Assembly (NCBI RefSeq): GCF_000242595.2
Contig: NC_017098.1
Location: 1,178,001-1,242,000, forward strand
DNA length: 64,000 nucleotides
DNA from: Spirochaeta africana DSM 8902
GTDB lineage: Bacteria; Spirochaetota; Spirochaetia; DSM-27196; DSM-8902
Direction of reading: 5' to 3'
A program made the translations under genes and the position numbers. Below the pieces are notes generated by a model. The model searched no databases and had not been told where the DNA came from. It was given only the letters and a program-made list of their open reading frames with translations. Shown here one piece after another: positions 1,036 through 35,287 of this stretch (position 1 is the first letter of the stretch; every line of letters starts with the position of its first letter).

Positions 1036-2528
1036 ATGGGCAAAATGGGTCTGGTAGTGGTTGTCGTGTGGTCGATGCTGGTGTCTTTCGGGTGTTCGAC
1101 GGTACGTGCTGAGCTGGTAGATGATATCGATCCAGGTATTTTCCCTGGCTTCGAGTTTCAAGTGTATACAACTGAGGTGCCCCGAATCCGGCCGGAGGTA
1201 ACGGCGGGGGCGGACGAAACCCCTCGTACCTACAGCCTGTATGCGGCGGTGGTCCGGCCGTCGTTTCGGGCCGGGAAGAGAACGCGGGATGTTATTGTCT
1301 ATATTCCCGGTGGGCCCGGGGGTGAGGGGATTGTGCCGCCGGGACAGTTTGAGCGCGATCTTTCGAGGCAGATGGATCTGCTGCTCCTGGATCAGCGGGG
1401 GATTGCGTGGTCGGATCCGGACATGCTGCTGACCGAGCGTTTGCCGGAGGATCCTGCGGATGCCCGGGAACGGGTTGCCAGGCTGTTGGCTCGGCGGGCA
1501 CTGCAGGGGCTGCCGCTGGAGGGGATAAACTCACGCGAGGCGCAGCAGATATTATCCATTGGGCCGATGAACTGGGCTACGATCGGGTGTTCCTGTACGG
1601 CAGTTCATACGGGACACGGGTTGCGATGATTGCGGCCGAGCTGTTTCCCGATCGGGTGGGCGGACTGGTGCTGGATGGGCCGGTCGCTCCGGGTGTAGCG
1701 CGGGTCGAAACCAGCGCCGTTCATGCTGCCCGTGCGATGGATGCCTTCTTTGCGGCTGTTGCAGAGGCAGTCGCGGATGATTCCCCGTATGCGACCCTGG
1801 GACCGGACTACCGGGAGTTTCGCGACAATCTGCCGGCAGAGGGGCTGCAGCTGCCGGTGTTCCTGAGCGAGGTTCCGGGTGGGCCGCATATTTCCGGGGC
1901 AGACATGGACGGTTTTGTATTCCATTCCCTGTACCGGACGACCCGGATTGCCACCCTTCCGCGGGCGTTGCATGAACTGCTGCGGGGCAATACCGGCTTC
2001 CGTGGGCTACGGCCCCTGGCAGCGAGAGGGTTGCCGATACCTGCCGACGAGGACGAGGAGTACTTCGAGGGTGGGGTGATGCATCTGACCTTTTTGCTGT
2101 GGCGTTACAACGATAACTGGCGGGATTTCCGGGAGGGGGTACTGCGTGATGCGGCTGCGGAGGTGGCAGATTCCTATCCTGGCATAGCCGAGTACTGGCT
2201 TGATGACCTGGCGGCCATGCAGGCTATTGCTGATCTGGAGCTGATTCAGTCGCCGGGCGCCGGGCGGCATGATCCAGCCAGGATCCAGGCACCGGTGCTG
2301 ATACTTTCCGGCGAGCTGGATCCGATCACCCCGGTGTGGCAGGCCGAGGAGCTGTCGCAGCAGATCCCGGGCAGCCGGTTGCAGATTATCCCGCAAGCCG
2401 GCCATGATCCGGGACTGTTCTTCCGTCCGGTCTCGCAGGCAGCTGCACGCTTCTTTATCGATCCCGAAGATCCCGGGATTGACGAGCTTCTGGACAGTGT
2501 CGGCGCTGCCGGATTCCGGTTCTGGTGA
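1036..2528 (+). pseudogene. secreted alpha/beta hydrolase (tripeptidyl-peptidase-like), frameshifted
   Basis: The ATG at 1036 follows AGGAGG with 5-nt spacing and opens a signal-peptide-like sequence ending near an F-G-C. The first frame carries the oxyanion region (I-P-G-G-P-G-G) and L-L-D-Q-R-G, but leaves the family pattern after I-N-S-R-E-A near 1542. The next frame takes over with A-D-I-I-H-W-A-D-E-L-G-Y-D, the nucleophile elbow G-S-S-Y-G, a C-terminal G-E-L-D-P-I-T-P (acid) and A-G-H-D (histidine). The two halves form one S33-type hydrolase of the TAP-like group, so about one base is missing around 1537-1545. This is either a real inactivating frameshift or a sequence error; no slippery run is visible. 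The 3' end overlaps the convergent MFS gene by 74 bp. Confidence 0.75.
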
Positions 2529-3597
2529 TGTCGGCGATGACGCACAGTATGGCAAGGGTGGCGAACAAACCGGCTGTGGGCAGGTTCATGAGCATGGGGC
2601 CGATGATGCTGCCGCTGATACGTATGGTTGAGTACAGCCCCATACCCCGTGCGGCGGCGTTTTGCGCGCGGCGGGCGGCGAACTGATTACCGCCTGCTAC
2701 CATGCGGCCGACCCAGAGGCCGCTGAGTATCAGCAGCAGTACCATCGGGAGCCATGCTTCGCCAGGCAGCACCACCGACAGCAGCAGGCAGCTGAAGGCT
2801 ATGGCCAGTAGCCCTCCGGCACGGGTGTCGGGATGTATCTGCCGGGATTGATACAGGATTCCGGCCAGTACGATGGCTTCGAATAACGCTGCGGCGATCT
2901 TTCCTGCCAGTGCCGAGTCTGTGGCAGACTCGGCTGCGGTGGGGATCAGGGTTTCCAGTGCCGATAGCAGGCAGGCTGCGATAATGGCATACAGGATGGC
3001 CGGTGCCATGTGCTGCAGCACCGGGACAGCGGTAGCGGGCTTGGCGGGTTTTTCGCGGGACGGGGGCTGCGAGCGCGGTACTGCCAGCAGGATGGTGCCA
3101 AACAGGGCCATGCCGGTACCGGCAACCCCGGTCAGCGCCAGGCGCGGGGAGAGGACCATAGCGGAGCCGAACACCAGGGGCCCGCTGATGGCGCCGAGGC
3201 TGGCCGAAAGTTCAATCCTGCCCATGCGACGGGATTGCGTGGCGGTGTGGGTGGATCGGGTTGCCGCAGCAATGAATGGCACCGCAGCCATGCCGGCACC
3301 ACCGAAGCCATGCAGCAGACGCAGCAGCAGTGCCGCGGGATACTGTGCCAGCAGGACACTCATGCCGCCCAAAGCGGCACTCCAGATCAGGAGTGCCGTG
3401 ACCATCCCTGTTTTGACCCCATAGCGGCGAACAAATGGTCCCCAGCACCAGCCGGTGGTTACCGCAGCCAATGGCCCGACTGCAATCAGGCTGCTGGCCT
3501 GTAGCGGTGAGTTGTAGATGTGCTTGAGCTGCGGATAAGCGGTAGCAAGCCCGACCTCTGTCAGCACATCTATGAAGGGCAGCAGATACAGCAGCAT
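2455..3597 (-). CDS. MFS-type permease
   Basis: A 380-residue hydrophobic protein with about 11-12 predicted membrane segments, the size of a major facilitator superfamily transporter. An R-R-Y-G-V-K-T-G stretch after the second segment matches the usual cytoplasmic loop 2-3 motif only loosely. The ATG at 3597 overlaps the stop of the upstream LacI-type regulator (TGATG), so translation is probably coupled; a longer frame upstream is not needed. The substrate cannot be read from sequence; pairing with a LacI regulator suggests a sugar or related small molecule, but the family also contains drug exporters. The 3' end overlaps the convergent hydrolase. Confidence 0.8.
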   Translation of the reverse strand: MLLYLLPFIDVLTEVGLATAYPQLKHIYNSPLQASSLIAVGPLAAVTTGWCWGPFVRRYGVKTGMVTALLIWSAALGGMSVLLAQYPAALLLRLLHGFGGAGMAAVPFIAAATRSTHTATQSRRMGRIELSASLGAISGPLVFGSAMVLSPRLALTGVAGTGMALFGTILLAVPRSQPPSREKPAKPATAVPVLQHMAPAILYAIIAACLLSALETLIPTAAESATDSALAGKIAAALFEAIVLAGILYQSRQIHPDTRAGGLLAIAFSCLLLSVVLPGEAWLPMVLLLILSGLWVGRMVAGGNQFAARRAQNAAARGMGLYSTIRISGSIIGPMLMNLPTAGLFATLAILCVIADITRTGIRQRRHCPEARQSRDLRDR

Positions 3598-4580
3598 CAG
3601 GTCGACTCGCGATGAATAAGGCGGTAGGCAATCTGTATCGAACGGGGATGCGTGCCGGGGGAGGTGGTGCACTGGATCAGGTGTTCCAGTGCACGCTCGC
3701 CCATGGTGCGGACCGGTTGATGAATCGTCGATATCCCCAGCACCTCGGCCAGGGGCTGATCATCAAATCCCAGTACCTTCAGTTGTTCCGGTATGGCGAT
3801 TCCCCGCTTGCGGGCAGCCATGAGTATGCCAGCGGCCAGATCGTCGGAACCACAGAAGACGGCATCGAACGGGAATGCCCCGGCGGTGTAAGCGGCAAAC
3901 ACCTCCTCGCCATTGTGCAGCAGGTCATCGCTAACCTGCTGTGTTGCGATGGCAGCATTCGGGTATCCCTCGGCAAACTCCTGAAAGGCGGTCAGGCGAA
4001 TGGTGTTGCTGCTGCAGGGGGATGTCGGGGTTGTGTGCAGACAGAGGATATTTCTGGCTCCCTGTTCGTACAAATGATGCAACCCGTCGAGCGTACTTTG
4101 GCGATGGTCGATGTACACACCGGGTAGATCTGCATGCTGCAGTGCCTGATCGCAGGTTACCAGTGGGAAATCGGTGAGCCAGTCGCCATACTCGGACCAG
4201 GGGGACAGCTCGGAAGCGATAATTACCCCATCGACTGCCCTGGTTACCACCAGCTGCATCAGTCGCCCGGGGTGCCAGGCCTCACCGCGAACCTGCTGTA
4301 CCAGAATATCATGGCCCAACCGGGCGGCAGCGGCGCCCACCCCGGCAATCAGGGATGAGTAGAACGGGTGAGCCGCATCCTCGATTACCAGCGCGATCCG
4401 GCGGGTCTGTCCGCTGCGCAGTACCCGCGCAGAGTCGTTGGGTACATAGCCCAGTTCTTTGATCGCCAGCTGGATGGTGAGCTGTGCTTCCTTTGACACA
4501 TACGGATGGCCGTTCAGATACCGGGAAACCGTAGCTGCCGACAAGCCGGTGTGCCGGGCAATATCATGTATAGTCGCCAT
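3597..4580 (-). CDS. LacI-family transcriptional regulator
   Basis: 327 residues. The N terminus is a classic LacI helix-turn-helix: T-I-H-D-I-A-R-H-T-G-L-S-A-A-T-V-S-R-Y-L-N-G, with the hinge helix R-V-L-R-S-G-Q-T. A periplasmic-binding-protein-like effector domain follows (I-A-L-V-I-E-D, then F-C-G-S-D-D-L-A and L-G-F-D-D-Q-P). The ATG at 4580 is preferred to longer in-frame starts because the HTH begins immediately and a promoter lies just upstream. It is cotranscribed with the MFS permease and probably represses both genes through an operator in its own promoter. The effector is unknown. Confidence 0.9.
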   Translation of the reverse strand: MATIHDIARHTGLSAATVSRYLNGHPYVSKEAQLTIQLAIKELGYVPNDSARVLRSGQTRRIALVIEDAAHPFYSSLIAGVGAAAARLGHDILVQQVRGEAWHPGRLMQLVVTRAVDGVIIASELSPWSEYGDWLTDFPLVTCDQALQHADLPGVYIDHRQSTLDGLHHLYEQGARNILCLHTTPTSPCSSNTIRLTAFQEFAEGYPNAAIATQQVSDDLLHNGEEVFAAYTAGAFPFDAVFCGSDDLAAGILMAARKRGIAIPEQLKVLGFDDQPLAEVLGISTIHQPVRTMGERALEHLIQCTTSPGTHPRSIQIAYRLIHREST

Positions 4581-4587
4581 ACCGGAT

Positions 4588-4618
4588 ACCATAGCATCTG
4601 GAATCGATTTCATGGCAA
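4588..4618 (-). promoter_or_regulatory. autoregulated lacI-type promoter with near-palindromic operator
   Basis: On the minus strand an extended -10 (TGCTATGGT, core 4593-4588) lies 7 nt before the ATG at 4580. A TTGCCA -35 (4618-4613) sits 19 bp upstream. The spacer contains TGGAATCGATTTCA (4599-4612), symmetric at 12 of 14 positions around a central CG, the layout of LacI-family operators. The serine hydrolase on the other side starts at 4662 and could share the site. Confidence 0.5.
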
Positions 4619-4661
4619 GCCGGATTTGATTTTTTTGCCGGATAATCTGAGACTCATACAC

Positions 4662-6044
4662 ATGAAAACTTCGGTGACAGGTCTTCGTATCCTGCTGGTG
4701 CTGCTCTTTGCCAGCTGTCTGCCGCTGTTGAGCGGGCAGCAACCACAGATAGCATCCCTGGCAGGGCAGTATCTGGAGTCAGCCCCGGGCGGGGTGGTGG
4801 TCGGGTATTATCAGCACGGCCAGATCAGCTGGTATGCCGCAGGGGAGAGCGGTAAACCGGGGATGGCCCTCAGTCCGGATGTGTATTTCGAGATCGGGTC
4901 GATTACCAAGGCGGTTATCGGTACCGGGTTGGCGGCCCTGGAGCGGGACGGGGTGATTGCTGCCAGCAGGCAGGTGGGTGAGCTGGATGCGCGGCTGCCA
5001 GGCGAGCTGGCCAGCCGGAGCCTGGAGGAGCTGGCAACCCATACCTCCGGGCTGCCGCGTGTTCGTCTGGGGGTGCGTGGGCTGGGGCGTGCGCTGGTGC
5101 GCCATCGCGATCCCTATGCCGGGCTGGATGAGGCGGCACTGCTGCGGGACCTGGATGCGGTCGCCCTGGATGATCCGGGAGAGTTTCGCTACTCCAACAT
5201 GGGGTATGCCCTGCTGGGGCATCTGCTGCAGGAGTCCCTGGAGTCGCCGTTTCCGGTATCGATAAGCCGGGATATGGATCTCCCGCGGCCGCAGGGGTTT
5301 ACTGCTAATGGGCGGCGCACCCCGTACTGGGGCTTCGATGCTTATGCCGGTGCCGGGGGGATGCTGGCTACCCCGCGCGAGCTGCTTGCGTTTACGGTGC
5401 AGCTGCTGGACCCCGACTCAAGCCAGGCGGCGGCTGCGCTGCCCAGGGCCGAGGCGGGGGGAGAGCGGCAGATCGGGTTGGGTTGGCTCATCGAACCGGT
5501 TGGCGAGGATGCGACCTTGGTGTGGCACAACGGTGGCACCGGCGGGTTTCGCAGCTTTGCCGGGGCGGTCCCGGAGCGGGACACTGCGGTGGTGGTGCTG
5601 GCCAACTCGGCGGTCAGTGTGGATCCGCTGGCCCGTGCGCTGGTAAGCGGCGAGGACTCTCTGCCGGAACCCGAATCCCCGGGGGCGTTCGCCTGGGCGA
5701 TGGGGATACTGATGCCGCTGCTGGTGCTGGCCTATTTTTTCCGGGTGATGCTCGGTCTACGCTATCCGCAGCTGCAGCCCAGGGATGCCCTGGAAACCAC
5801 CAGCGGATGTACATCGGCGCTGTTGTCGGCGGCGGTCTGGCCGATTGTTGCCCCGGCAGCCATCTATACTGCATGGACAGGGATGCTGCTGGCAGTACTG
5901 TCTGTCGCGGGGGGTGTCGCTGGCCTTGGTGTGGTGTACCACAGGCGACTGCCCGGCTCGGTGTCGCGCCATTGGTGGCAGGGGCTGGCGCGGGCAGCTG
6001 CGGCTGTGGGCTACGGGGTCCTGGCGGTGGCGCTGGTATGGTAA
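4662..6044 (+). CDS. exported serine hydrolase (class C beta-lactamase fold) with C-terminal membrane segments
   Basis: 460 residues starting at the ATG with an immediate signal peptide. It carries the three serine beta-lactamase/DD-peptidase motifs: S-I-T-K (Ser80, Lys83), Y-S-N (Tyr177) and H-N-G (His289). After the catalytic domain about three membrane segments follow (from about residue 345), so the enzyme is anchored with its active domain probably in the periplasm. Such proteins act on peptides, esters or cell-wall D-amino acid peptides; beta-lactam hydrolysis is not implied. It is divergent from the LacI regulator. A second, unrelated-looking copy of the fold lies at 9158-10432. Confidence 0.85.
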   Translation: MKTSVTGLRILLVLLFASCLPLLSGQQPQIASLAGQYLESAPGGVVVGYYQHGQISWYAAGESGKPGMALSPDVYFEIGSITKAVIGTGLAALERDGVIAASRQVGELDARLPGELASRSLEELATHTSGLPRVRLGVRGLGRALVRHRDPYAGLDEAALLRDLDAVALDDPGEFRYSNMGYALLGHLLQESLESPFPVSISRDMDLPRPQGFTANGRRTPYWGFDAYAGAGGMLATPRELLAFTVQLLDPDSSQAAAALPRAEAGGERQIGLGWLIEPVGEDATLVWHNGGTGGFRSFAGAVPERDTAVVVLANSAVSVDPLARALVSGEDSLPEPESPGAFAWAMGILMPLLVLAYFFRVMLGLRYPQLQPRDALETTSGCTSALLSAAVWPIVAPAAIYTAWTGMLLAVLSVAGGVAGLGVVYHRRLPGSVSRHWWQGLARAAAAVGYGVLAVALVW

Positions 6045-28398: not shown

Positions 28399-29316
28399 AT
28401 GAAATATCTGCATGCTTTTTTGCTGCTGGTGGTCAGTGCCGCGGCAGTTGCCGCTGTATCGAACCAGCCCTTGCCGCGCGATCTGCCGGTGTATCCCGAG
28501 ATGGTGGAGGTAGACTGGCTGGTGATGGACGGGGAGTTCCGCGCGGCCATCGATCAACTGAAGGAGTATCTGGAGGACGAGGACCGTGATTTCCCGGAAC
28601 TCGAGATCGCCTGGCGGATGGCGCAGATAACCCAGTATGCCGGGGAGGATGCCTGGTACCGGGATGCCGACAGCGACACCATTGCGCAGTGGTTCGAGCG
28701 ATCCGAGCAGTGGGTCGAGCACACCATCGAGATCGCCCCGGATGAGCACCACGGCTACTTCTGGGATGCGGCCCTCATTGGCCAGCGAGCCATGGTTCGC
28801 GGTCCCCTGAACTCGCTGTTTGCGGCCCCGGACATGCGTGACCGCCTGATCGAGGCAGCCGAACATGAGCCGTATGCCGGCCATGTGTACTACGCTGCAT
28901 CGATCCTGTACCATCAGCTGCCGCGGATGATTTCCTTCGGGGATCGGGATGCGGCGGTGTCGCTTGCCCGCGCGGCGGTCGCGTATCAGAAGATAATGCT
29001 CGAATTCGAGGTAATCCCCAAGGCAACCGAGGGGTTCTACCTGCAGCTGGCGCGAAGCCTCTGGACCCGCAACTGGTCGCGACAGCGCCGGCTGCAGGAG
29101 CAGCAGCGCAAGCGCGAGAAGCTGCAGAACCTGGAACACCCCTTTGAACGTGCCAAGCATTTCGAAGGCCGCTTCTCCATTCCCAGCATGAGCGACCGCG
29201 AAGAGGCGCGGATGCTGATTGATCAGGTTGCTGTGCGTCTGAATGGGGATGATCTGGTGTATATCGATCGTCGTGATCGCGAACGCCTGCAGGAGCTGCA
29301 GGAGGCCTGGGACTAA
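28399..29316 (+). CDS. exported helical protein of unknown function
   Basis: 305 residues with a signal peptide (K-Y-L-H-A-F-L-L-L-V-V-S-A-A-A-V-A-A). The mature part is alpha-helical and TPR-like (repeated W/Y/A positions such as D-G-E-F-R-A-A-I-D-Q-L-K-E-Y-L), with a charged coiled segment L-Q-E-Q-Q-R-K-R-E-K-L near residue 235. I do not recognise a named family. It is divergent from the NagZ-like gene, probably leaderless, and its 3' end overlaps plsC by 4 bp. Confidence 0.7.
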   Translation: MKYLHAFLLLVVSAAAVAAVSNQPLPRDLPVYPEMVEVDWLVMDGEFRAAIDQLKEYLEDEDRDFPELEIAWRMAQITQYAGEDAWYRDADSDTIAQWFERSEQWVEHTIEIAPDEHHGYFWDAALIGQRAMVRGPLNSLFAAPDMRDRLIEAAEHEPYAGHVYYAASILYHQLPRMISFGDRDAAVSLARAAVAYQKIMLEFEVIPKATEGFYLQLARSLWTRNWSRQRRLQEQQRKREKLQNLEHPFERAKHFEGRFSIPSMSDREEARMLIDQVAVRLNGDDLVYIDRRDRERLQELQEAWD

Positions 29317-30059
29317 GCCTCCTGCAGGTGCTGCTGAATCAGGTCCTGTGCCTGCTCGGCCAGCGCCTTGGTATCCTGGGCGGTAACCTGCTCGACCGGT
29401 ATTTCTGGCAGCACGGTGACATGGATGTGAACCCGGTGCCGCATAATAAAGCTGCTTTTCGGCAGCGATGCGAACGAGCCGTTGATTACAATCGGCACAA
29501 TCGGCACCTTGGCTTTCTGGGCGATAACAAAGGCACCCTCCTTGAAGCGGCGCAGTGTACCGTCTGCGGTGCGGGTACCTTCGGGAAAGATCAGCACTGA
29601 ACTGCCCTGTTCGACAGTCCGGATAGCTGTCTTGAGCATCTTGAACTGGCTGCGTCGGTCCATTCGGTCCAGTCGTATGTAGCGATTCAGGGCCATGTGC
29701 CAGCCGAATACCGGAATCTTGAACAGTTCGGCCTTGGCTACCCATTTGAAATGCTTGAACAGTCGATACAGCACCAGGATATCCACCAGCGACTGATGGT
29801 TGCTGATAATCATATAGGGTGTGTCGGGCCGGATGTTTTCGCGGCCGGTGATGTGTATCGCCCAGAAGGGATTTATCCAGGTGTAGATGCTGGCCCAGAA
29901 ACAGGAGTACTGATGCAGAACCCGGCGGCGGCGATCAAAGGGCAGCGTCAGCCCAAGGATGATTATTCCCGTCAGGAACAGTGGTATTGCTATCAGGATG
30001 CAGAAAACCCACACAAACAGTGAGATCAGCAATGACAGCAGGAATTGCAGCGGTTTCAT
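29313..30059 (-). CDS. plsC: 1-acyl-sn-glycerol-3-phosphate acyltransferase
   Basis: 248 residues. A membrane hairpin at the N terminus is followed by the acyltransferase motifs N-H-Q-S-L-V-D (the catalytic H-x4-D) and F-P-E-G-T-R, with V-P-I-V-P-I-V-I-N-G as the last motif. It acylates lysophosphatidic acid to phosphatidic acid at the inner membrane. AAGGAGAG precedes the ATG at 30059. A TTGACA (30114-30109, minus strand) inside the end of the upstream CotH gene may be its -35. Confidence 0.92.
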   Translation of the reverse strand: MKPLQFLLSLLISLFVWVFCILIAIPLFLTGIIILGLTLPFDRRRRVLHQYSCFWASIYTWINPFWAIHITGRENIRPDTPYMIISNHQSLVDILVLYRLFKHFKWVAKAELFKIPVFGWHMALNRYIRLDRMDRRSQFKMLKTAIRTVEQGSSVLIFPEGTRTADGTLRRFKEGAFVIAQKAKVPIVPIVINGSFASLPKSSFIMRHRVHIHVTVLPEIPVEQVTAQDTKALAEQAQDLIQQHLQEA

Positions 30060-30090: not shown

Positions 30091-33000
30091 TCAGTGATTT
30101 TCCGGTTCTGTCAACAAATCAGCCCGGGCGAATTCCGGGGTCACACGGACATCATCTGACAGCAGCAGGCGAATCTCCGGCTGCAGCAGCTGGTCGGTAC
30201 CAACACTGCCCTGCCAGCCGGTAAAGACCCAGCCGGGATCGGGTTGGGCCTCGATCTCGATCGGAATACCCGCAAAGTAGGTGCCGTTCCAGTCGCCGGT
30301 TTCTCCGGGCTCGGTGCCTGGCAGTCCGCGGTTCAGTGTGATGGTGTTGAGGCGAACGGTACCGCCAGTGGATGGCAGGGTAATCGTAACCGTGGCGGTA
30401 CCGACCGGCGGAAAGCCGCGCAACTGGAAATACTCGATAATATGCTGCGTCTGTACTGCCGGGCGCTGCCGGGCAAAGCGGATATGACTGTCCACCTGGG
30501 AGCGCCAGAATGCCAGCGATGCCGGGTAGCGCCAGCGTTCAATGTGACGCTGCATCTCCGGTTCCAGCAGTTCTGCAGCATCTTCGATCGCGGCGGCATA
30601 GATATCCGGGCGATACAGCGAGTTCATCAGGTCGGCAAAGCGGTTGACAAAGCGGTGGCGGAATTCCTGGTTCTGCAGCAGTCCGGCGATCAGGGTTGTG
30701 TAGCGGGGATTGTAGACATGCTGTACCGCAGCCGACCGCTGTGCGGCCTGGTCCCCCAGCAGTTCGGGATCCACCGCCTCGGGATCGGTCTGGCCGGTAC
30801 GGCCTGTCTGCTCGGGCTTGGCGGCATCGATATAGTCCTGCAGTCGGCGGTCGTTGGCGTAAAATGTCATCATGTCGTTCTGCAGGAACATCAGGGCGTT
30901 GTCCAGATCCCAGGTGTGCCAGCGCCAGCGTCCGTCCAGTCCCGGCGGCAGTTCGGGGTCATACTCCCGACGCACCCGCCACATGGAAACATGCTTGGTG
31001 ACCCCGTCGGGGTCACCGGAGTAGATCCGTACAATGTTGTAGTCGATAAAGCTGTCGATATCCATCCACCGGGCCACCCGCTCGTAGTGACCAGGGTCGG
31101 ACATGTCGTGCTCCTCGACGTAACGCAGCAGGTCCCGAAAGTCCTGATCCTCGCCGGGTTCTCCCCAGTCAAGCTGTGATGGATACCCCAGCGGCCCCTC
31201 CAGGATAATCACCTCGGCGGGATCAATCCCGTAGCTGTTGGCAAGGAAAAACCGGTCGAATCGCTCGCGCAGGTTTTTGATCCCCCAGTACTCGCCGTTT
31301 ATAAAGTGAATGACCGGCCGGTAATGCAGCAGATCCACCTCTACATGCGGTCTGACATGGTCGTGGGTTATGGCATCCTGCAGATGGCTGCGAAACAGGC
31401 TCTGTCCGCTGCGCAGCATCAGCCGCTTGTGCGCCGTCAGATGAGAGTGATCCGTCCGTCGTACCGCCTCGGGGAATACCGAATGGCGGAAATAGTTGAC
31501 CCTGTCATAGTCCTTACGGGCATACAGACGCAGGGATTTCAGGGGATGCGCCCGTGAAAACCCGCCGTGGATCCGTACACCCGCCGGAACCGAGAATCCG
31601 CGATAGCCGTCGGGTTCGTAAAACTCGATATGAGCAGGAATCTCGTCACGCCCCGACCAGTTGGCCGGATGGCGCATCCAGTTACCGACAAAGTCATCGT
31701 GCTCGTCATACACCCTGCCGGGGACGTAAATTCCGTGCTCGTACGAAAAAAGATCCTCGGGATTGGCCTGAATCGACACCACCCCCATGGGGAAGGCATC
31801 CGCGCCGTCCTCGTGGACAAAGTAGGTGGTGCTGTGGATCCCGCTGCGAGCCGTGCCGTCCCAGGCAATGGCACGCACCGGTGTACCCTTGAATACATCG
31901 CCGTAAGGCTCCTGCCAGTACCAGAAGTCGGCCTCGGGTATGGTTGTCGGGATATTGGCCAGACGGTTGGGTTCCGGGGTGCGATCCCGGATATCCAGTG
32001 GGCGGCGATACTGCCGGGTTGTGCTTCCCGGACGTCCGGGCGTGGGGTCGGAACCGTCCAGGGTGTAGTATATCTGTACCTCCGGGTGTGGACTGGAAAG
32101 CTCCAGTTGAAACGGCTGTCGGAAAAAGCCGCCTTCTCGCGAGAACTGTACCGGGGTGTAGCGGCGGGCCCCGCTGTTGTCCTGTCCCGGTGTCGGGTCG
32201 ATATAGGTAACAAACAACCCGTCTTCGCGGCGCCCCCAGCTGGTATCGCGGGGAATTGCGGGCACATCGGTGTGATCAACGCGGGTGCGGCGGTCGGCGG
32301 CGGTCAGCAGCACCGCGGTTCCTCCGGACGACAGGGTAAAGCTGGTGTGCGGCGCCGCGCCGATATCCAGCCGGGATGACCCGGGCGGCAGTTCAACCGC
32401 TGCTGCGGTGCCGTCGTCAGAGCCGTCGTCTGGCCTGCGGTCGACGCCGTCGCCGGGGCCGCTGTCCTTGCCGGATGCGAACACCAGCAGAAAATCCCCC
32501 GGGCTCAGGATGCTGCCATCCGGGAAGCTCCAGGCAAAGGGATCATCCGGATTGGCGGACAAAAAAAAACCGCTCAGATCGATTGCTTCGTCCCCGGGAT
32601 TGTACAGTTCGATCCAGTCAGGAAAATCCCCGTCGGCATCGGCCAGGGTACTGCCGTTGGAGGTCATAACCTCGTTGATCAGCACCTCGCGACTGGGTTC
32701 CCGTGGCAGCTGCGGCGGCTGCCGATAGGTAATGTGGGGCCAGTAGGGGAGCAGCACATCGTAGCCGGTCGGGCCTTCTCCCGGGGTTCCGCCTACCGGA
32801 TTGTCACGGATGTCGACATCCGCAGTCACCCCGCCAGCCGGATCGTCCTGCAGCGCTCCCTGCTGCATCAGTCCGGCAAGGGCCGTCAGATCCTGCACCC
32901 CGGTGTTGCGGATGTTCAGTCGCTGCAGCTGACGCAGATTGGCAATAACCGTAATCTCTTCCTGTATGGGGACATTGCGCAGAATCAGGGTCTGCAGTCT

Positions 33001-33759
33001 GGTCAGGTCGCGCAGGGGCTCGATACTGCGGATGGCCGGATTGGAGTGCAGGTTCAGGTAGCGCAGCCCGGCCAGGGCCCGCAGCGGCGAGATGTCCTGT
33101 ACACCGCTCTCCCGCAGGTTCAACTCCTCCAGGGCAGTCAGTGACTGCAGCGGTGCCAGGTCTGCGCTGTCGAGCCTGGTTTCCCGCAGATCAAGCCGTC
33201 GCAGCCGCGGCAGCGACGCCAACCGGTCCAGGCTGGTAACGGCGGTAGCCCGCAGCGAGAGCTCGCGCAGCTGCACCAGCTCCTCGATCCCGGCAAGATC
33301 TCTCAGCTCCGGGTTGTTTTCCAGATCCAGCAGCCGCAGCATGCGATGATTCCGAAGCGCCGGGGTTGCTATCTGGTCAAGATCCTGCAGCGATGCGTCG
33401 CGCAGCCGCAGCTCCTCCAGGCGGGGGGTGTCCGCCAGCGGGGCCAACGAGACAATGGGATTGCCGGATATATCCAGCCGTCGCAGATTGGGCAGCTGCC
33501 CGATACCATCCAGGCGTTCAATCCCGAAATAGGCAGCGTCCAGGGCGGTTATGCGTTCCAGATCGCTGTGGTGCAGCCGATCGACGTCCGGCAGGGCCTG
33601 TTCAACTGCCTGCTGCAGGCCCGGGTCGGGGAAACGGATCCTGCTGCCGGTCAGATACAGGCTGGCATAGGCGATGATGGTCAGGATCAGGAGCAGACTG
33701 GAGGCGACGACGGCGGCGTGAACCCGGCTGCGAGTGGCAAAACGCAGTATTCGCTTCAT
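30091..33759 (-). CDS. membrane-anchored LRR / lamin-tail / CotH-kinase-like multidomain protein
   Basis: 1222 residues, third gene of the operon. A membrane anchor (about 17-38) is followed by leucine-rich repeats to about residue 310 (L-P-N-L-R-R-L-D-I-S-G-N-P type). A lamin-tail domain comes next (L-I-N-E-V-M-T-S-N-G, W-I-E-L-Y-N-P), then a chitobiase C-like segment (Y-Y-T-L-D-G-S-D-P-T-P). The CotH-like domain covers about 640-1000: V-R-I-H-G-G-F-S-R-A-H-P-L-K-S, N-G-E-Y-W-G-I-K-N-L-R-E-R-F, Y-S-G-D-P-D-G-V-T-K-H and W-D-L-D-N-A. A repeat-like C-terminal module ends with G-W-V-F-T-G-W. CotH proteins are atypical secreted kinases in spore formers. ATG 33759 overlaps the VTC gene by 4 bp. 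Confidence 0.85.
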   Translation of the reverse strand: MKRILRFATRSRVHAAVVASSLLLILTIIAYASLYLTGSRIRFPDPGLQQAVEQALPDVDRLHHSDLERITALDAAYFGIERLDGIGQLPNLRRLDISGNPIVSLAPLADTPRLEELRLRDASLQDLDQIATPALRNHRMLRLLDLENNPELRDLAGIEELVQLRELSLRATAVTSLDRLASLPRLRRLDLRETRLDSADLAPLQSLTALEELNLRESGVQDISPLRALAGLRYLNLHSNPAIRSIEPLRDLTRLQTLILRNVPIQEEITVIANLRQLQRLNIRNTGVQDLTALAGLMQQGALQDDPAGGVTADVDIRDNPVGGTPGEGPTGYDVLLPYWPHITYRQPPQLPREPSREVLINEVMTSNGSTLADADGDFPDWIELYNPGDEAIDLSGFFLSANPDDPFAWSFPDGSILSPGDFLLVFASGKDSGPGDGVDRRPDDGSDDGTAAAVELPPGSSRLDIGAAPHTSFTLSSGGTAVLLTAADRRTRVDHTDVPAIPRDTSWGRREDGLFVTYIDPTPGQDNSGARRYTPVQFSREGGFFRQPFQLELSSPHPEVQIYYTLDGSDPTPGRPGSTTRQYRRPLDIRDRTPEPNRLANIPTTIPEADFWYWQEPYGDVFKGTPVRAIAWDGTARSGIHSTTYFVHEDGADAFPMGVVSIQANPEDLFSYEHGIYVPGRVYDEHDDFVGNWMRHPANWSGRDEIPAHIEFYEPDGYRGFSVPAGVRIHGGFSRAHPLKSLRLYARKDYDRVNYFRHSVFPEAVRRTDHSHLTAHKRLMLRSGQSLFRSHLQDAITHDHVRPHVEVDLLHYRPVIHFINGEYWGIKNLRERFDRFFLANSYGIDPAEVIILEGPLGYPSQLDWGEPGEDQDFRDLLRYVEEHDMSDPGHYERVARWMDIDSFIDYNIVRIYSGDPDGVTKHVSMWRVRREYDPELPPGLDGRWRWHTWDLDNALMFLQNDMMTFYANDRRLQDYIDAAKPEQTGRTGQTDPEAVDPELLGDQAAQRSAAVQHVYNPRYTTLIAGLLQNQEFRHRFVNRFADLMNSLYRPDIYAAAIEDAAELLEPEMQRHIERWRYPASLAFWRSQVDSHIRFARQRPAVQTQHIIEYFQLRGFPPVGTATVTITLPSTGGTVRLNTITLNRGLPGTEPGETGDWNGTYFAGIPIEIEAQPDPGWVFTGWQGSVGTDQLLQPEIRLLLSDDVRVTPEFARADLLTEPENH

Positions 33760-34478
33760 ACCACCAGCCTTGGGGTTGCCATACTGGGCCGCACAATCTC
33801 TATCCCTTGTACGTACTTGCTGTTGGGCACCATCTTGAGCGAATGGCGGCGCACGATGTGCTGCAGCCATTCCGGCTCCTGGTCCCGGGCACACTTGATC
33901 TCGAGAACGATATGCTTTGGTCGGTGTGGTTTCAGCAGCGGGTTGTCCGGAAAGAGCATGTGTGAACGGGTGCTGCTGACGTTGTGATCCAGGGTTACCC
34001 GCACCGGCACCCGGTCCCGCGATTGATATCCCTCGCGCAGGTACTGGACCAGCAGGGTTGGCAGCAGGCTGCGCACCCGCAACAGCCGTTCAAACTCGAT
34101 CAGTACCGGGTCGGCCGGGCTCAGCCAGCTGCGGGTCTGCATGAACTGCAGATAGCGTGAACAGGGCACGAACGAGCCGTACTTTTCCATCACACTGCCT
34201 TTTTTGGTTTTCAGTTCGACCAGCACCTGCGGTGAAGCGGTGATCGTGTCGCTGTAGCTGCGGATGCGCAGCTTGATGCGCCCGTAGTTCCCCTGGTTCC
34301 GTTCATGAAAGGCAGCGTAATCACTGGTATCAAAGTACAGGCTGCGCACCAGATACCGTCCGCCAGCCGCTGCTGTATATGGATCCAGGGTCATGAAGCT
34401 GCGCAGCGCGTTGCGTACCTGGTAGTACTGGGCCACCGACAGCTGGTACTTGCGTTCGAATCGCGAGGTGATCCGCAT
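33756..34478 (-). CDS. VTC-domain (polyphosphate polymerase-like) protein
   Basis: 240 residues, a stand-alone VTC domain of the triphosphate-tunnel type. Typical tunnel positions are seen: F-E-R-K-Y at the start, R-S-L-Y-F-D-T, K-L-R-I-R-S-Y, V-E-L-K-T-K-K-G, V-R-V-T-L-D and L-E-I-K-C. In yeast the domain polymerises ATP-derived phosphate; bacterial versions are less understood. No membrane segment is present; it may work on the inner face with the adjacent DUF4956 membrane protein. It follows that gene by 3 bp and overlaps the CotH gene by 4 bp. Confidence 0.87.
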   Translation of the reverse strand: MRITSRFERKYQLSVAQYYQVRNALRSFMTLDPYTAAAGGRYLVRSLYFDTSDYAAFHERNQGNYGRIKLRIRSYSDTITASPQVLVELKTKKGSVMEKYGSFVPCSRYLQFMQTRSWLSPADPVLIEFERLLRVRSLLPTLLVQYLREGYQSRDRVPVRVTLDHNVSSTRSHMLFPDNPLLKPHRPKHIVLEIKCARDQEPEWLQHIVRRHSLKMVPNSKYVQGIEIVRPSMATPRLVV

Positions 34479-34481
34479 GGG

Positions 34482-35159
34482 CTACATCGGCAGGGTAAGC
34501 TGCGGGGTGAGCAGCGACACCTTGCGTACTCCTTCTACCTGGCGGACCTCGCCGGCCAGCTGCTGGATGCGCTGTTCCAGCTTGCGCTCAAAACGGAACT
34601 CATAGGTCAGCTCCCAGTTCTCTCCGTCAATCTCGTGACTGCGCAACTGCACCTGGGCCGGGGTGTTGCCGGTTATGTGTTCGATTGCCTGGTAGTTGTA
34701 GGGCATAGCCCCGCCAACGATCAGGATGTACTCCGACTGCAGCTGCCGACCATACTTCGTCAGGTAAAACACCGAGACTACCAGGGCCAGAAACAGGGTT
34801 GCCAGTACTGCATAGGTCCAGTGATGGGTGCCAACACCCAGGCCGATTGCAATGGTCCAGAACAGGAACACCATGTCGCGGGTGTCCTTGATCGGGGTGC
34901 GAAACCGGATGATCGACAGCGAGCCCACCAGGCCAAGTGAAAGTACCAGATCGCCCTGGATAAAGAACATAACCAGGGTGACAATCGGGGTAAGCAGAAC
35001 CAGAGTGGCCGGAAAACTGCTTTCATAGTTGAGTCCGCGGTGGGTGTAGCGATAGACCGCTGCAATTCCCAAGCCGAGCAGTATTGCCAAAAGCAGCGAG
35101 ATGCCGAAATTCATCAGCTGATCCGGTGGGACAAGGATCACGGCAATGAGCCTGTTCAT
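34482..35159 (-). CDS. DUF4956 membrane protein
   Basis: 225 residues. Four or so membrane segments in the first 130 residues with the family pattern S-L-G-L-V-G-S-L-S-I-I-R-F-R-T-P-I-K-D between them, followed by a soluble alpha/beta domain of about 90 residues ending in E-G-V-R-K-V-S-L. The family has no assigned activity but is often found beside VTC and CotH genes, as here. AGGAGGA lies 5 nt before the ATG, so this is the first gene of the operon. Confidence 0.85.
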   Translation of the reverse strand: MNRLIAVILVPPDQLMNFGISLLLAILLGLGIAAVYRYTHRGLNYESSFPATLVLLTPIVTLVMFFIQGDLVLSLGLVGSLSIIRFRTPIKDTRDMVFLFWTIAIGLGVGTHHWTYAVLATLFLALVVSVFYLTKYGRQLQSEYILIVGGAMPYNYQAIEHITGNTPAQVQLRSHEIDGENWELTYEFRFERKLEQRIQQLAGEVRQVEGVRKVSLLTPQLTLPM

Positions 35160-35287
35160 TCTTCCTCCTGTAAGGGCGCTGATTATGCATTGTCAGTGTA
35201 GGGTTAGATCATCAATTGTGCAAGGATTGTGGTTTCGGTATGCCCTCTCTTGACAAATCGGAGTCCGCTACAGCACACTGATAGCCT

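Follow-up and report, generated by a model that had tools for sequence, protein, structure and literature searches.

A conserved DUF4956, VTC and CotH gene cassette in Spirochaeta africana and its possible role in linking polyphosphate synthesis to the cell surface

The genome of Spirochaeta africana DSM 8902 is a single contig of 3,285,855 bp (NC_017098.1), its nearest named relatives being members of the Spirochaetaceae. A stretch of 64,000 nucleotides of this genome (positions 1,178,001 to 1,242,000 of the forward strand, hereafter the window) carries a cassette of three genes on the minus strand in the order DUF4956, VTC and CotH, which encode a membrane protein, a polyphosphate polymerase-like domain and an anchored surface protein with a CotH kinase-like domain, respectively. 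Pfam searches and an inspection of the open reading frames bore out the three genes and the domains named in a preliminary description of this DNA (Table 1). The DUF4956 and VTC products lie above the Pfam cut-offs, with 54.7 bits against PF16316 (E 1.3e-14, cut-off 30.6) and 129.6 bits against PF09359 (E 1.8e-37, curated cut-off 23), respectively.

Table 1. Positions in the window of the cassette genes and of the features recognised in and beside them
Feature	Positions	Strand	Description and evidence
DUF4956 gene	34482..35159	-	225 aa; five predicted transmembrane helices and C-terminal ACT-like domain; PF16316, AlphaFold2
VTC gene	33756..34478	-	240 aa; triphosphate-tunnel polymerase domain standing alone, without a hydrophobic anchor; PF09359
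LRR-LTD-Fn3_assoc/CHB-CotH gene	30091..33759	-	1222 aa; anchored surface protein; Pfam and hydropathy
Membrane anchor at N-terminus of CotH protein (residues 16-34)	33658..33714	-	Hydropathy scan
Leucine-rich repeats (LRR), internalin-like (residues 59-299)	32863..33585	-	PF12799 E 1.2e-29; internalin A 2omx E 4e-34
Lamin tail domain, LTD (residues 354-495)	32275..32700	-	PF00932 E 3.9e-14
Fn3_assoc / CHB_HEX_C_1, chitobiase-C-like module (residues 543-646)	31822..32133	-	PF13287, PF13290
CotH kinase-like domain (residues 728-1101); D918, H923, D951, D953	30457..31578	-	PF08757 E 8.8e-34, 117.9 bits
InlB-B-repeat-like C-terminal module (residues 1158-1211)	30127..30288	-	PF18998 23.2 bits, just below cut-off 23.6
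AGGAGG, Shine-Dalgarno-like, 4 nt 5' of DUF4956 ATG	35164..35169	-	Read in sequence

The three genes had been described as tightly overlapping, which holds for VTC and the CotH gene, sharing four nucleotides (ATGA, 33759-33756), but not for DUF4956 and VTC, where the stop codon (34484-34482) and the VTC ATG at 34478 are separated by 3 nt. This sole overlap of the cassette is not a constant feature, the junctions in relatives varying between short overlaps and gaps some tens of bases long, and the fixed stoichiometry that had been read from the overlaps therefore does not follow. Scans for promoters and terminators gave no more than shuffled sequences did.

The structure of yeast VTC4 (3g3q) is matched at E 1.8e-12 by a profile made from ten VTC sequences of the cassette (VTC4 numbering is the 3g3q chain index plus 185). 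Residues K10, R71, R73, K90 and K99 of the window protein align to VTC4 K200, R264, R266, K281 and K294, and Y146, R148, R160, E193 and K221 to Y359, R361, R373, E426 and K458, such that all ten mapped tunnel and nucleotide or metal residues are present. R264 and R266 are described as ATP-binding and essential in an earlier report (PMC8749416). Across 87 VTC homologues, R71, R73, E88, K90, K99, R148, R160 and D164 are identical throughout, K10, E193, K195 and K221 are identical in 86 with one gapped row, and position 146 carries Tyr in 85, the remaining two having Phe. An active site so nearly invariant is not expected of a dead or regulatory domain, and the window VTC likely makes polyphosphate, as judged from its sequence. 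Within its 240 residues no SPX domain or transmembrane segment of its own was found, Pfam giving only VTC and hydropathy no segment. The genome also encodes the polyphosphate kinase PPK1, whereas PPK2, sought in the same genome, was not found; the possibility that VTC is the sole polyphosphate maker was rejected on account of PPK1.

The AlphaFold2 model of the DUF4956 protein, built with 68 sequences (predicted local distance difference test, pLDDT, 90), begins with a short helix at the N-terminus, followed by five longer ones and a mixed alpha-beta domain. In this predicted model the C-terminal domain resembles ACT domains and the C-terminal domains of MgtC, with Z 10.9 and rmsd (root mean square deviation) 2.9 over 88 aligned residues for 7qa5, and Z 10.5 and rmsd 2.5 over 85 for 2lqj, many other ACT folds matching as well. 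No full-length fold match was obtained, only the ACT-like part being matched, and the comparison thus barely covers the transmembrane part. The MgtC Pfam model stays below its cut-off in the window protein (15.6 bits, cut-off 31.4) and matches 18 of the 68 DUF4956 homologues at E 0.01 or better. The protein is therefore predicted to look MgtC-like, with five transmembrane helices and a cytosolic ACT-like domain, without being classed as MgtC. Against the VTC chains in the PDB set it gave no sequence match. Lys at position 91 is found in 85 of 86 VTC-linked homologues and in none of 16 VTC-less ones; it was nevertheless rejected as a VTC-specific contact, the tree requiring only two changes of VTC linkage with one to two independent pairs, which makes it a subfamily marker.

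The modelled CotH domain (pLDDT 85.5) was matched by Foldseek to Bacillus cereus CotH 5jd9 (E 2.7e-11, TM-score 0.60/0.72), and its fold also matches the AMP-bound form, 5jda. The Asp of the NFDG motif in B. cereus CotH is aligned with D918, and a change of Asp228 inactivates B. subtilis CotH (PMC7821199). On this alignment D918 is the presumed catalytic Asp and would correspond to D228. In a set of 71 CotH domains, which includes CotH paralogues from the other loci of the S. africana genome, Asp stands at position 918 in 58 rows (with His in 10), at 951 in 67 and at 953 in 57, and the rows with His in place of the presumed catalytic Asp come from other phyla, in which the cassette persists. 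Thus the catalytic residues, the loss of which in both domains would have spoken against the preliminary description, are retained in VTC and, as D918, D951 and D953, in CotH, with one exception at position 923, where the expected Asn is His. By analogy with protein kinases, an Asn at this distance of five residues from the catalytic Asp is presumably a metal ligand. Position 923 is Asn in 45 of the 71 rows and His in 11, including the window, and His occurs in all eight rows of the window clade (of which L035 and L043 represent a single contig). As a separate observation, in loci L088-L099 (Planctomycetota, KSB1, Cloacimonadota, Pelagibacterales and similar) another residue, in most cases His, takes the place of the presumed catalytic Asp of CotH, and VTC is intact.

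The distribution of the cassette was examined in the best 80 of 120 confirmed loci, a cross-phylum set obtained by scanning genome contigs with a VTC alignment. The loci were picked on VTC alone, sampling only VTC proteins that share the motif so sought and leaving the neighbours unselected, and profiles built from the window proteins were then used to seek DUF4956 within 4 kb and CotH within 6 kb. The 80 loci span Spirochaetota, Izimaplasma/Mycoplasmatota, Bacillota, Chloroflexota, Bacteroidota, Cloacimonadota, Sumerlaeota, Planctomycetota, KSB1, Pseudomonadota and Actinomycetota, together with a few other phyla and two archaeal groups. DUF4956 was found in 77 of them, always on the same strand as VTC and at a distance of 200 bp or less in 71, CotH in 64 and both in 62, an arrangement far beyond chance. 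The conserved neighbourhood on which the preliminary description depended is borne out by the 48 loci that have 4.5 kb or more of sequence on each flank, where DUF4956 is present in 47, CotH in 42 and both in 42. The full trio is lacking in L047, L080, L085, L102, L103 and L113, of which L047, L080 and L085 retain an LRR or LRR-LTD protein with CotH absent. In L080, L085 and L087 the VTC-DUF4956 pair is followed by a short LRR-LTD protein without CotH, and the neighbouring genes resemble parts of ATP-binding cassette (ABC) sugar transporters. Plasmid records yielded only three weak matches.

The LRR fusion had been thought possibly lineage-specific, a view overturned by the survey, in which a fused LRR-CotH reading frame was scored in 19 of the 80 loci (one of them, L084, reading through an assembly gap) belonging to Spirochaetota, Izimaplasma, Clostridiales, Chloroflexota, Cloacimonadota and Bacteroidota. 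L046 and L049 carry LRR and CotH as two adjacent genes; the fusion is thus widespread, and split and fused forms both exist. L084 also shows an apparent VTC-LRR-LTD-CotH single frame (2323-5931) that crosses a run of N. Its 1202-aa frame was rejected as proof of a VTC-CotH fusion, the gap of N lying at 3073-3156.

Within the phylum, a survey of 159 genomes detected DUF4956 in 25 (24 over the cut-off), CotH in 25 and VTC in 12 (11 over the cut-off), DUF4956 and CotH being found together in 22 when the tables were compared by hand. Ten of the 11 genomes with VTC over the cut-off have both partners; in nine of the ten VTC lies less than 400 bases from DUF4956 (about 2.5 kb in G079), and CotH lies within 6 kb of VTC in nine, being far off in G140. 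Among near relatives VTC is present in 20 of 61, in most cases preceded by DUF4956 and followed by an LRR gene. The S. africana genome itself gave matches to one VTC, three DUF4956 and six CotH, and two of its other loci (L031 and L032) carry DUF4956, CotH and LRR genes without VTC.

Distance matrices of the three proteins, compared over 60 loci, correlate at 0.86 for VTC and DUF4956, 0.56 for VTC and CotH and 0.53 for DUF4956 and CotH, each value being reached by none of 200 permutations, although shared ancestry alone raises such correlations. Sequence divergence thus suggests that VTC and DUF4956 form the closest pair and that CotH is the more exchangeable partner; the lower CotH values perhaps stem in part from harder alignment across the CotH subfamilies.

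The same three families are known from polysaccharide loci. They are described as accessory genes, cotH/PPP/DUF4956(/DUF4832), that directly adjoin pelDEADAFG in streptococci, clostridia and bifidobacteria (PMC7112168), and in Streptococcus intermedius as SIR_1592-1594 (PMC12345266), the families and their contiguity being those of the present cassette. The DUF4956-like protein of the Pel operon is likewise described as having an MgtC-like transmembrane part and an ACT domain (PMC12345266), and from this description and its gene position SIR_1592 would be the DUF4956 protein. S. africana differs in that PelG, sought across its whole genome, was not found and the trio does not adjoin pelDEADAFG, in that its CotH is fused to LRR, LTD and Fn3/CHB modules, and in that the genes form an isolated unit in the order DUF4956-VTC-CotH. 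A 2025 paper states that synteny of the trio was not found outside the Pel locus (PMC12345266). PelG was sought in 50 of the 80 VTC-locus genomes, mostly with the full trio (L047 and L080 lack CotH), and no match was obtained in 47; in G216, G246 and G249 it is present, apparently on a different contig or at a distance of tens of kb. The occurrence of the trio in many genomes without PelG qualifies the published statement.

Other systems share parts of the cassette. NELoc-2 of Clostridium perfringens (PMC2879425, PMC11677781) resembles the cassette in that VTC and CotH genes share a locus, where membrane proteins of about 225 aa lie between them, although the locus is a different one and the middle proteins are annotated as tubulin/FtsZ GTPase. 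Two proteins of this size and annotation, CP4_0461 and CP4_0464, stand beside VTC genes (PMC2879425), and their size and position suggest that they may be DUF4956 proteins. The yeast VTC complex has in common with the cassette the catalytic family, the mapped active-site residues of Vtc4 and a membrane partner, whereas the bacterial protein lacks SPX and a transmembrane part of its own and its partner is MgtC-like. The CotH spore-coat kinase of Bacillus (5jd9/5jda) shares the fold and the presumed catalytic Asp; unlike it, the S. africana protein is membrane-anchored and multi-domain, belongs to a non-spore context and has His for Asn five residues past that Asp. VTC-type polyphosphate polymerase is listed as eukaryotic in the tables of a 2026 paper (PMC13318637).

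As the preliminary description proposed, the three proteins may form one phosphate-transfer machine. The explanation that we tentatively prefer, though it is still open to considerable doubt, is a membrane-docked polyphosphate synthase coupled to an extracytoplasmic CotH/LRR surface protein. At the cytoplasmic face, soluble VTC would join the gamma-phosphates of nucleotides into polyphosphate, like yeast VTC4, while docked on DUF4956, whose cytosolic ACT-like domain would hold or regulate it and which probably stands in for the transmembrane part of the yeast complex. Gene neighbourhood and distance correlation make the VTC-DUF4956 contact probable. DUF4956 may further thread the chain outward, export through it being possible, and on the outside the CotH kinase-like protein, fused to LRR, LTD and Fn3-CHB modules and held by its one-helix anchor, would act on envelope or matrix material. 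Whether CotH uses the product of VTC is speculative. An extended form, in which DUF4956 carries polyphosphate that VTC has made from cytosolic ATP across the membrane and CotH phosphorylates surface proteins or glycans with it instead of ATP, is very improbable; His 923 of the window clade would fit a changed donor site, and such a supply of phosphoryl groups, if true, would allow phosphorylation outside the cytoplasm where no ATP is expected.

Several observations weigh against the coupled synthase. CotH is missing beside VTC in six of the 48 full-flank loci, and DUF4956 and CotH occur without VTC in the two further S. africana loci and in seven further genomes of the phylum. R85 and R87 of DUF4956, which might handle a polyanion, are conserved not only in VTC-linked homologues but also in most of those without VTC, and the window CotH has His at 923, where most have Asn. 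In S. intermedius the mutant of SIR_1593, the polymerase homologue, aggregates and makes Pel, with no change reported in the available text (PMC12345266), which argues against VTC strictly feeding CotH and weakens that part of the explanation. A search of the freely available literature found no enzyme assay of a bacterial VTC protein.

In other explanations the three proteins are less closely joined. It is rather unlikely, though deserving of serious attention, that VTC makes ordinary cytosolic polyphosphate without export, that DUF4956 is an ACT-containing, MgtC-like regulator of polyphosphate or of phosphate/ATP balance and that CotH is a separate envelope kinase which is merely co-expressed. 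The resemblance of the DUF4956 C-terminal domain to regulatory ACT and MgtC C-terminal domains and the 18 homologues matched by the MgtC model would agree with such a role, as would the description of Salmonella MgtC as acting on ATP synthase and PhoR (PMC12345266); however, PPK1 is already present in the genome, so that bulk polyphosphate in the cytosol alone would hardly require VTC, the adjacency and matched divergence of VTC and DUF4956 are unusually tight, and DUF4956 is also paired with CotH where VTC is absent. This last pairing is central to another view, which we consider unlikely, that DUF4956 and CotH are the core of a matrix or envelope assembly module with VTC as an optional part, tuning secreted glycans in polysaccharide operons and an LRR/LTD surface coat in spirochaetes. 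CotH indeed accompanies DUF4956 in 22 of the 25 DUF4956 genomes of the phylum, with VTC over the cut-off in just 11 of 159. The available text on S. intermedius (PMC12345266) further reports that deletions of SIR_1592 and of SIR_1594 (CotH) share a loss of more than half of aggregation in one medium, no such phenotype being given for VTC, and that the Pel level is up in the former mutant and down in the latter. Glycan genes lie within about 7 kb in 25 of the 80 loci, a descriptive count that stands without a background rate and with seeds chosen after clustering, and six loci have BcsA-like, AlgX-like and MBOAT genes. Set against this, DUF4956 and VTC are kept without CotH in L047, L080, L085, L103 and L113, and the spirochaete loci L043, L044, L047, L053 and L060 show none of the tested glycan families.

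A further alternative concerns CotH alone, which might be a non-catalytic or altered pseudokinase serving as a binding module beside LRR and LTD, the surface protein then being an adhesin or scaffold. The His at 923 throughout the window clade and the exchange of the catalytic Asp for His in 10 of 71 rows, with the cassette persisting, lend it some plausibility; the retention of D918, D951 and D953 in the window protein and the overall match to the AMP-bound B. cereus structure make it distinctly unlikely. An apparently intact, near-invariant VTC site is placed in a three-gene unit across many bacterial phyla and some archaea. The small size of the cassette suits it to studies of a possible coupling between polyphosphate synthesis and the membrane in bacteria, and it also bears on how extracytoplasmic CotH-type kinases obtain phosphate.

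As regards the surroundings of the cassette, an acyltransferase gene (29313-30059, same strand) begins 31 nt past the CotH stop and is not kept beside the cassette in relatives. The flanking window genes (acyltransferase, DUF212, a 532-aa protein, GH57 and GH3) gave no tblastn match at 1e-5 in the loci of 23 relatives, some of which are short contigs, and a wider operon was rejected on this result. The VTC-less loci of S. africana lie at about 21-31 kb (L031, 6995-17148) and 81-84 kb (L032, 7074-10026) of the genome, and the LRR protein of L031 (10664-12367) has a long C-terminal part without a Pfam match. In L104, L108, L111, L115, L117 and L118 the cassette stands among BcsA-like GT2-PilZ, AlgX-like and MBOAT genes, and a second VTC-DUF4956 pair is present in L104, L117 and L118.

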